Translations under genes and position numbers: made by a program
DNA from: Gammaproteobacteria bacterium
GTDB taxonomy: Bacteria > Pseudomonadota > Gammaproteobacteria > VBWC01
Length of the DNA: 64,000 bases
NCBI GenBank assembly: GCA_023266115.1
Contig: JAHFRU010000016.1
Coordinates: 1-64,000, forward strand
Direction of reading: 5' to 3'
The notes under the pieces: model-generated
Told to the model about the DNA's origin: nothing
The model's database searches: none
What the model saw: the letters and a program-made list of their open reading frames with translations, nothing else
In this document: piece after piece, positions 19,644 to 40,451 of the stretch
Layout: every line of letters begins with the position of its first letter
Numbering within the stretch: the stretch's first letter is position 1

Positions 19644-19757
19644 GGTGGCCCGTACAAGTCCTCTCGCAACGATAGAGTGTGAACCCCGTCAGGCCCGGAA
19701 GGGAGCAGCGGCAGCAGTCGATTCGTGTGCCGGGATGTGGCGGGTACGGGTCGCCGC
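19644..19757 (+). ncRNA. ffs: Signal recognition particle 4.5S RNA
   Basis: The apical part GTCAGGCCCGGAAGGGAGCA, then GCAG and GTGCCGGGATGTGGC, matches bacterial 4.5S RNA, including the GGAA tetraloop and the two internal loops bound by the Ffh M domain. The ends pair (GGTGGCCCGTAC at 19644 with GTACGGGTCGCC at 19746-19757), giving about 114 nt, the E. coli size. It lies just upstream of dnaX, a common position in gammaproteobacteria. Exact ends are from pairing only. Confidence 0.93.
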
Positions 19758-36389: not shown

Positions 36390-37256
36390 TTAATCCGGGA
36401 GCTCGTCGACCTTGATCAGCGTGACGCCCTGCATGGTGTCCGACCGTTTGGTCGAGAACACGTAACCCTGCGTGTCGTGCGCCTCGGTTCGGGAGATACC
36501 GCCAACTTCCAGCCATTCCCCGAGACTGCCCGAAATGGCGGTATGCATCTGCCGCACCGTGACCGCGCCGGACGTGCCGGAATCCATGCTGGCCCGGTGT
36601 GGCCGGATTTCCAGCGTCACCTGGTTGCCATTGGTGCGTGCCAGCACATCAAATCCCGCGGTAACGTCCCGGTACGCGAACTCGGCATGCTTGCCGGCGA
36701 CCTTTCCCTCGAGGCTGCCGGCCCGGGTTACCACCGGAACCGACTGTCCGACGCGTATCGACGCGCTGTGGCCCTCGAGAACCTGTATCTGTTGCGTGTC
36801 TGCTTCATCGGCATGGGAGCGTGTTCGCGTGATGTGGGCGGTGACACCTCGTCCGTTACCCGGGCGGGCGTTTTCCCCGCCGCCGATCGTGGCGTCTATG
36901 TCACCGCCTGTCGAGATCGAGCCGCTGACGCTGCCGGCCTGATGTTCGGCGTCACCCACATCGCTTTGCCGTACACTAATCACTAACCGCCGCGGCGCCT
37001 GGTCGATGGATGCAAGGATCTTGCGGATTTCCTTCATGTTGGCGGGTGTCGTACGTATTATGAGTCGAAACCCCGTGCCTGATATCACGTCCTCGTCGGC
37101 AAGAAATGGCTTGATCATCGGGATGATCTCGCTTGCCGGCCGATTTTTCAGTTCGAGAATTTCGGTAGCGCCGTCCGCCGCAAATCCGGTCGTCGCGACG
37201 ACGGTGAAGGAGGCGATCCACAACGCCGCGTGTAAATGTCGGAGTAATGCTGCCAT
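36390..37256 (-). CDS. Short secretin-like periplasmic protein (secretin N domain)
   Basis: A 288-residue protein with a signal peptide (HLHAALWIASFTVVATTGFA). A secretin N-terminal (NolW-like) domain follows at about 30-100 (ILELKNRPASEIIPMIKPFL, IIRTTPANMKEIRKILASID). The Gly-rich centre (SVSGSISTGGDIDATIGGGE) resembles the disordered loops of N domains. The last third (VRVGQSVPVV-type SIRVGQSVPVVTRAG, YRDVTAGFDVLARTNGNQVT, LEIRPH) matches the start of the secretin barrel. Full secretins are 500-700 residues; the pore-forming end and S domain are absent. It may be a small accessory or orphan secretin-like protein. The DUF7931-type gene is 5 bases upstream, so they form one unit. Confidence 0.75.
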   Translation of the reverse strand: MAALLRHLHAALWIASFTVVATTGFAADGATEILELKNRPASEIIPMIKPFLADEDVISGTGFRLIIRTTPANMKEIRKILASIDQAPRRLVISVRQSDVGDAEHQAGSVSGSISTGGDIDATIGGGENARPGNGRGVTAHITRTRSHADEADTQQIQVLEGHSASIRVGQSVPVVTRAGSLEGKVAGKHAEFAYRDVTAGFDVLARTNGNQVTLEIRPHRASMDSGTSGAVTVRQMHTAISGSLGEWLEVGGISRTEAHDTQGYVFSTKRSDTMQGVTLIKVDELPD

Positions 37257-37261
37257 GGATT

Positions 37262-37774
37262 TCAGAGAAGCAGGCGGCGCAGCTCAGCGTGTGGTTCGCT
37301 GCGCCCCCACACTTCGTTAAAGAATTTGACCAGCTCCCGGGCTTGGCGGCGTGCATTAAAATTGACGATACCGGTATAACGATCCGCGACGCGACGATGT
37401 AACACCCCGCTCTCGTCCGCAACGAGAAACGACTCGTTAAAATCCTTGTACTGATAAGCCGGTTTACGCAGCTTGACCTTGCTGTCGAGGCGGTAACACA
37501 GATCCAGCAGTCGATGACCGTGTTTGGCGATTTTTTGGGTATCCTGTAGCAGGATATGGACGAACGAGTATCGGCTGCGCGTCGCCAGGGAGGTGACCGC
37601 ATCGACAAAAGGCACAGTGTCATAAATCGGGGCGTCGAGATCTGCGCTGAACAGGTGCAAGGTTCGTTGCGCCTGGGAGGCCAGTGAAACGGCCGCCAGA
37701 CGACTCTCGTCACTCGTGGCGATGTCAATGTTTCCGGTGGACTCACCGATGATCAGGTTTTCAGTAGGTGCCAT
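37262..37774 (-). CDS. DUF7931-type protein
   Basis: A 170-residue soluble protein with SLASQAQRTLHLFSADLDAP, IYDTVPFVDAVTSLATRSRY, VHILLQDTQKIAKHGHRLLD and FNESFLVADESGVLHRRVAD. The pattern resembles a single phospholipase D-like half domain (DUF7931) found near N-acetyltransferases in gammaproteobacteria. The HxKxxxxD catalytic motif is not evident (HGHRLLD is the closest), so activity is doubtful. It is the first gene of a two-gene unit with the secretin-like protein. Upstream lie the three candidate small RNAs, transcribed in the same direction and each closed by a terminator. Confidence 0.65.
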   Translation of the reverse strand: MAPTENLIIGESTGNIDIATSDESRLAAVSLASQAQRTLHLFSADLDAPIYDTVPFVDAVTSLATRSRYSFVHILLQDTQKIAKHGHRLLDLCYRLDSKVKLRKPAYQYKDFNESFLVADESGVLHRRVADRYTGIVNFNARRQARELVKFFNEVWGRSEPHAELRRLLL

Positions 37775-37861
37775 GATCGATACGCGTGCGTCTGTTCAAG
37801 ATTGCGGAGGTGCCATCTGCTGCGTGATTATATTGGACTGTCGCGGCCGTCAGCACAACCC

Positions 37862-37903
37862 AAAAAAAACCCCGAACTGTATGGGAGGGGACACAGTTCG
37901 GGG
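37862..37903 (-). terminator. Intrinsic terminator of RNA C
   Basis: CCCCGAACTGT (37903-37893) pairs perfectly with ACAGTTCGGGG (37880-37870), with the loop GTCCCCTCCCAT, followed by eight Ts on the minus strand. The loop is C-rich. Confidence 0.85.
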
Positions 37904-37985
37904 CGAATTTCGATAGTGATAACGACACAGTGGGGAGGCATGAAGGTAGGATAGTACCTACGTGTCGGTGTTTCACTATCTGGTA
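37862..37985 (-). ncRNA. Candidate small RNA C (tandem sRNA array)
   Basis: On the minus strand a long-range stem GATAGTGA (37980-37973) pairs with TCACTATC (37919-37912). A second stem, CGACAC with GTGTCG, lies inside it. The enclosed loop holds a small hairpin (GTAGG...CCTAC) and the single-stranded word CTTCATGCCTCCCC. The RNA ends in the terminator at 37903-37862. A TATCAT box at 37994-37989 could be its -10. No open reading frame is present. The same architecture recurs in RNA A with different stem sequences, which supports a structured RNA. Confidence 0.6.
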
Positions 37986-38048
37986 ATGATATTGGCACCG
38001 GGCAGCCAATAATTCGTGAACAGCATCACAGTTTCCGAAGCAGGTCGG

Positions 38049-38086
38049 AAAAATACCCGAGCTATGCGGGGGTGGCGCAGCTCGGG
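38049..38086 (-). terminator. Intrinsic terminator of RNA B
   Basis: CCCGAGCT (38086-38079) pairs with AGCTCGGG (38063-38056); the loop contains GCGCCACCCCCGC, with a possible GCG/CGC extension. TATTTTT follows on the minus strand. Confidence 0.75.
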
Positions 38087-38165
38087 TTACCCGGAGGGGT
38101 AGTGGCGGTGGAGCGCAGGTGCCGCTTTCGGGGGAGGGAGTCACGGCGCCACCGTTTGCTACCAG
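38049..38165 (-). ncRNA. Candidate small RNA B (tandem sRNA array)
   Basis: The minus strand reads CGGTGG (38154-38149) pairing with CCACCG (38111-38106), an inner GCCG/CGGC stem, and between them the C-rich single strand GACTCCCTCCCCCGAAAG. It ends in the terminator at 38086-38049. A CATAAT box near 38180 is a possible -10. It is more diverged from A and C than they are from each other, but has the same plan. Confidence 0.45.
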
Positions 38166-38219
38166 CAGTTTCTATTATGCGGATCGACGCGGACTTTACT
38201 GTGACGTGGCTAGCAAGCC

Positions 38220-38262
38220 AAAAAAACCCGAACTGCACGGAGGGGAGATGTACAGTTCGGGG
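38220..38262 (-). terminator. Intrinsic terminator of RNA A
   Basis: CCCGAACTGTAC pairs with GTGCAGTTCGGG on the minus strand, with the loop ATCTCCCCTCC, and seven Ts follow. The stem is nearly the same as in RNA C; the loop again is C-rich. Confidence 0.85.
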
Positions 38263-38333
38263 TAAATTAAGGCAATCTGCATGACACGTTTGGGGAGGCT
38301 TGAAGGAAGGAGCCGTGCCCGCTGATTGCCTAA
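38220..38333 (-). ncRNA. Candidate small RNA A (tandem sRNA array)
   Basis: On the minus strand GGCAATC (38330-38324) pairs with GATTGCC (38277-38271), and GCACG with CGTGT inside. The enclosed loop has a GGCT...AGCC hairpin and the word CCTTCAAGCCTCCCCA, shared with RNA C (CCTTCATGCCTCCCCA). A terminator with CCCGAACTG/CAGTTCGGG and seven Ts ends it. Upstream, TTGACT at 38360-38355 with GATATT 16 bases later, or GATAAT at 38345-38340, could be the promoter. It begins right after the purB terminator. Length would be about 110 nt. Confidence 0.6.
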
Positions 38334-38356
38334 ATATCAATTATCCATACACCAAG

Positions 38357-40451
<2,095 letters not shown>

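Follow-up and report, generated by a model that had tools for sequence, protein, structure and literature searches.

Spot 42 and CyaR are CRP-controlled enterobacterial small RNAs (sRNAs) that act by base pairing, and Spot 42, which sits by polA, is repressed by CRP. The Xanthomonas sRNA sX13 is ~110 nt long and strongly structured, with C-rich apical loops on three stem-loops, and lies beside polA; experiments have established that, through these loops, it represses mRNAs whose ribosome binding site bears G-rich motifs (PMC3771888). In the Rhizobiales, the SmelA075 and SmelA099 families carry CCUCCUCCC loops, in which a conserved anti-Shine-Dalgarno sequence is held by variable stems (PMC3927594). 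Here we analysed three tandem units, designated A, B and C, in a 64,000-nucleotide stretch of DNA from a Gammaproteobacteria bacterium (hereafter the window). These units follow the same logic of conserved loops in variable stems as the SmelA075 and SmelA099 families, which differ in being alphaproteobacterial, in having three or four hairpins per RNA that each bear the motif, and in the motif itself. Relative to sX13, the window units have one long hairpin plus a terminator, are located beside purB, possess a CRP site and occur as tandem copies. They have no sequence relation to Spot 42 or CyaR.

We compared the units with known RNA families using Rfam at both gathering and relaxed thresholds, and in the window and the loci of eleven relatives they reached no cut-off. 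Pseudomon-1/ErsA (RF01719), which likewise combines a hairpin whose loop is C-rich with a following terminator whose loop is C-rich too, scored 20.1 and 18.8 bits in the window and 28.5 and 26 bits in relatives against a cut-off of 50. Anti-hemB (RF02837; 22.7 bits in the window and 28.1 at locus L102, cut-off 49.5) and the Betaproteobacteria toxic sRNA (RF02278; 19.8 bits, cut-off 50), both of which resemble the units in combining a C-rich loop with a terminator, were rejected on the same grounds, as was Spot 42 (RF00021), for which the best window score was 13.6 bits against a cut-off of 80 and for which the locus is purB, not polA. The only Rfam match in the window was a bacterial small SRP RNA (19653-19749, + strand, 65.6 bits), unrelated to the array. 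A literature search, conducted largely outside subscription papers, returned no sRNA described at purB. We regard the units as a new family whose functional kind is already known.

All three units lie on the minus strand between the purine gene purB (38377..39762, −), the conserved upstream neighbour of the array, and a gene for a DUF7931 protein (37262..37774, −), and a first-pass annotation of the window had given their sequence and coordinates correctly. That annotation had placed the array between purB and a secretin-like operon; the purB flank stands, but the directly downstream gene is DUF7931, and the gene for a short secretin-like protein (36390-37256, −; 288 aa, with Secretin and Secretin_N domains) comes after it, as it does in several genomes. 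Unit A (38220..38333, −) has a predicted start at ~38333 and a T-run end at 38220, and runs from a long hairpin, whose loop is C-rich, through a linker to an intrinsic terminator. Unit C (37862..37982, −), which shares this layout, is predicted to start at ~37982 and has its T-run end at 37862. The C-rich loop cores of unit A (CCTTCAAGCCTCCCCA, 38291..38306, −) and unit C (CCTTCATGCCTCCCCA, 37931..37946, −) are the proposed pairing regions, and that of unit C aligns with the TGCTTCCCCAA...GTCGTY loops of other families. The outer stems, GGCAATC/GATTGCC in A and GATAGTGA/TCACTATC in C, have no sequence in common and yet pair, as had been proposed: both units fold, with z-scores relative to shuffled sequences of −5.6/−5.4 for A and −6.4/−6.6 for C. 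The conservation that had been noted for the CCTTCA word and the terminator stem was also confirmed, since CCTTCA-N-GCCTCCCC, found in the A and C loops, has exactly two exact occurrences in the 64 kb, and the terminator stem CCCGAACTGT...ACAGTTCGGG is common to both.

The claim that the three units are structurally alike stands for A and C but less so for unit B (~38049..38167, −), a divergent copy with a C-rich internal part and terminator loop. Unit B folds weakly (whole-unit z −2.2), and its 5′ hairpin folds no better than shuffles (z +0.5). The whole array is present in the sister genome, the sole other sampled genome of the genus, where identity is 98% for the A and C RNAs, 90% for B and 84% for the promoter spacers. 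Between these two genomes the unit A loop differs by a 1-base indel, which would break any reading frame and so supports the earlier reading of the units as non-coding. A BLASTN search with the array matched the sister genome only, with no plasmid match.

We found a feature that the first-pass annotation had not described, namely that each unit is preceded by a predicted CRP operator and a predicted promoter of class II. The operator of unit A (TGTGAACTGGTTCACA, 38366..38381, −) matches TGTGA-N6-TCACA at 10/10 positions, is identical in the sister genome, and is followed 20 nt later by the −10 hexamer GATAAT (38340..38345, −). The predicted operator of unit C (TGTGATGCTGTTCACG, 38015..38030, −) is a perfect or near-perfect match, again 20 nt before its −10 hexamer, CAATAT (37989..37994, −). 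Unit B has a degenerate predicted operator (TGCTAGCCACGTCACA, 38200..38215, −; 8/10) 20 nt before CATAAT (38174..38179, −), a −10 hexamer read directly from the sequence. In the 64 kb, TGTGA-N6-TCAC occurs solely at the A and C promoters (0.37 expected), and the distance from operator to −10 is constant at 20–22 nt. With a predicted start 6–8 nt after the −10, the A and C operators are centred near −41.5 and overlap the −35, and a centre near −41.5 is the classical position for class II CRP activation. The units thus have the layout of class II CRP promoters with respect to their predicted transcription starts. The genome encodes an ortholog of the carbon/energy regulator CRP (347 bits on the CRP equivalog model, for which the cut-off is 266) that retains the SRE..GR recognition helix, and it encodes Hfq. 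At 38360-38387, the unit A CRP palindrome is followed by TTTTTT and is the sole evident terminator-like palindrome after purB, and the operator palindrome may double as the purB terminator; overlaps resembling this one are found at loci L009 and L013.

To look for relatives, we screened 80 purB loci from other species and found a CRP site with the same spacing, ahead of a hairpin whose loop is C-rich and a terminator, downstream of purB at L009 (two units) and L013. A search with DUF7931 added units of the same layout at L097 (two units) and L114. A covariance model, R1, was constructed from these six units of distant genera only, with the window units absent. In a search of 352 kb, R1 recovered window unit C (E 4.9e-7, 32.1 bits) and unit A (E 1.9e-4, 23.5 bits), and A and C therefore match a model to which the window contributed nothing. 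In the 369 class genomes sampled, R1 found further units; the real-looking matches had a CRP site upstream, even though R1 included no upstream DNA, and nearly all lay after purB. A second model, R2, was built with unit C and with the copies of A and C from the sister genome, but with B left out. In the window's genome its sole matches were A (2.5e-14), B (9.9e-5) and C (9.3e-17), and in a further search the E-values were 5.1e-15 (A), 2e-5 (B) and 1.9e-17 (C). Unit B, recovered at 2e-5 although absent from the building set of R2, is a real but divergent member.

Across both rounds we examined 38 matches for a CRP site (at least 8/10, in the expected place). It was present in 17 of the 18 that were adjacent to purB and in 4 of the 20 that were not, compared with 18 of 1591 control windows from the same loci (1.1%). 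Counting CRP-site matches only, the family is found in at least 25 of the 369 sampled class genomes and at least 14 families, a lower bound because weaker matches were only partly inspected. Tandem pairs occur at L009, G337/L097, G205 and G075; exceptions to the pattern are L131, which has no CRP site, and L126 and L167, which are away from purB. The earlier view of the units as tandem sibling sRNAs of an unrecognised family is supported by the independent covariance model, by purB synteny in at least 14 families and by the lack of an Rfam match.

In the second round, 23 units were aligned and 94.5% of the modelled pair cells were paired. Two-sided changes were found in 15 of 17 modelled pairs, including all seven pairs of the inner stem, which bears out among relatives the compensatory change first seen between A and C. 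The covariation score was 0.596, compared with 0.223 for shuffled alignments and at most 0.13 for slid structures, figures that lean in the structure's favour because the alignment was fitted to it. MAFFT and RNAalifold recovered the terminator alone across the divergent units, because the stems do not align by sequence, and a covariance-model alignment, which leans towards its own structure, was used in place of the MAFFT alignment. The stems of independent families are nevertheless truly different sequences that pair. Comparison among genomes shows the units and their structure, the promoter layout, the synteny and the family itself.

We next consider the loops, which we examined in 36 units. 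The 5′ part alone had a median folding z of ~−3.1, with z below −2 in 27 of the 36, and the fully open loops were 16–27 nt long and 50–72% C, versus 35% overall. A stable stem presenting a C-rich loop, the functional kind of sX13, is thus a property of the family. Loop sequences are kept over 15–25 nt within subfamilies, with no single invariant sequence across families: one group has the subtype CCCCCGCATCYACCCCGACGC and another has TCCCTCCCGCTTTGCTTCCCCAA...GTCGTY, to which window unit C aligns. A single-stranded C-rich loop that is conserved while its stem changes freely has the appearance expected of a region that pairs with G-rich ribosome binding sites, and sX13 is a precedent; from this we infer CRP-activated, trans-acting repression. 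Transcription of the units, CRP binding, target pairing and the direction of regulation are likewise inferred. It is probable, in our estimation, that the array comprises three members of an unrecorded Gammaproteobacterial family of CRP-activated trans-acting sRNAs with C-rich loops that would block G-rich Shine-Dalgarno regions. Each sRNA of 105–130 nt would be transcribed from a promoter of its own, at which CRP binds near −41.5 (class II), and would end at its own intrinsic terminator. Given the class II position, transcription would be expected when cAMP-CRP is active. A rigid, freely varying 5′ stem would present the conserved 18–28 nt C-rich loop, followed by the terminator hairpin, usually with a second C-rich loop; the C-rich loops would pair with the G-rich Shine-Dalgarno regions of target mRNAs and thereby block translation, and the tandem copies would supply dose and diversified loops.

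If this is true, an sRNA family for which both the inducer (cAMP-CRP) and the mode of action are predicted would be added to lineages that are in many cases known from metagenomes only, and for which almost no post-transcriptional regulation has been described. It would also exemplify an sRNA whose loop and operator persist although its stems are replaced altogether, a pattern that accounts for its escape from sequence searches; the covariance model and the syntenic anchor, purB, are ready for finding further members. On a wider proposal our judgement is evenly divided: the purB locus may be home to a CRP-activated sRNA system of ancient origin in Gammaproteobacteria that lie outside the model orders, with a function parallel to that of Spot 42/CyaR and sX13. 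In such a system the loop and operator alone would be conserved, the stems would turn over freely, and repeated duplication in tandem would make the loops diverge, giving sibling regulators of carbon/energy metabolism.

Rather than pair with mRNAs, the same loops could serve as a sponge that sequesters a protein or other RNAs. The multiple copies and the lack of a single invariant loop sequence across families would suit such a role, as would the terminator loops of the L114 (1317-1427) and L009 (4651-4762) units, which are G-rich, not C-rich (GGAGGGA and TGAGGGA), and might base-pair with the C-rich loop within the same RNA. However, loop conservation over 15–25 nt within subfamilies exceeds what a plain C-run sponge needs, and we know of no bacterial sponge for a C-run-binding protein of the type described, so we regard this explanation as unlikely. 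A cis-acting role, in which the units would be leaders or attenuators for the DUF7931/secretin-like operon with regulated read-through of the terminator, is quite unlikely in our view: in many genomes they do sit immediately before DUF7931, and their terminators are strong, but there are three in succession, each with a promoter and a terminator to itself, we saw no alternative fold that would act as an anti-terminator, and the unit stays while the downstream gene changes, to a cupin (RoxA-like) gene at L023 and L169 and to others around L126 and L167. It is hardly credible that the units are ordinary terminators or palindromes after purB, alike by chance or recent duplication, for although weak model matches are dominated by terminator hairpins and many low-scoring ones are without a CRP site, synteny, the CRP site and two-sided changes in the stems are found together in at least 14 families, and R1 recovery, two-sided changes and CRP-site counts refute this explanation for A and C.

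Returning to the reading of the units as trans-acting sRNAs, a crude seed scan with GGGGAGGC-N(1-14)-ATG gave 9 matches versus 5 in the reversed control, which was not significant. Candidate targets in this set, with GGGGAGGC a few nt before ATG, include mraZ, a periplasmic-binding-like gene, a lipase-like gene and a second CRP/FNR-type regulator (G000 loci L174, L176, L177 and L180). The single extra match to the loop pattern in the class (G205/L005) fell where an apparent coding region ends and was attributed to chance. Model matches that had neither CRP site nor purB were, on inspection, discarded as simple terminators or as RNAs of another kind (L129, L130, L134, L135, L138, L140, L141, L143, L144, L146, L148-L150, L168, L170 and L172). 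L172 (G162:C3:74216-74306) is an ErsA/Pseudomon-1-like RNA that R2 matched weakly. At L097, a group II intron-like RNA (194-263, + strand) scored 39.8 bits, just below the cut-off of 40. In L168 and L170, a hairpin whose loop is C-rich (TTTCCCC / TTCTCCCC between CCGG arms) precedes a terminator with a long C-rich loop; these two are possibly another C-rich sRNA family.
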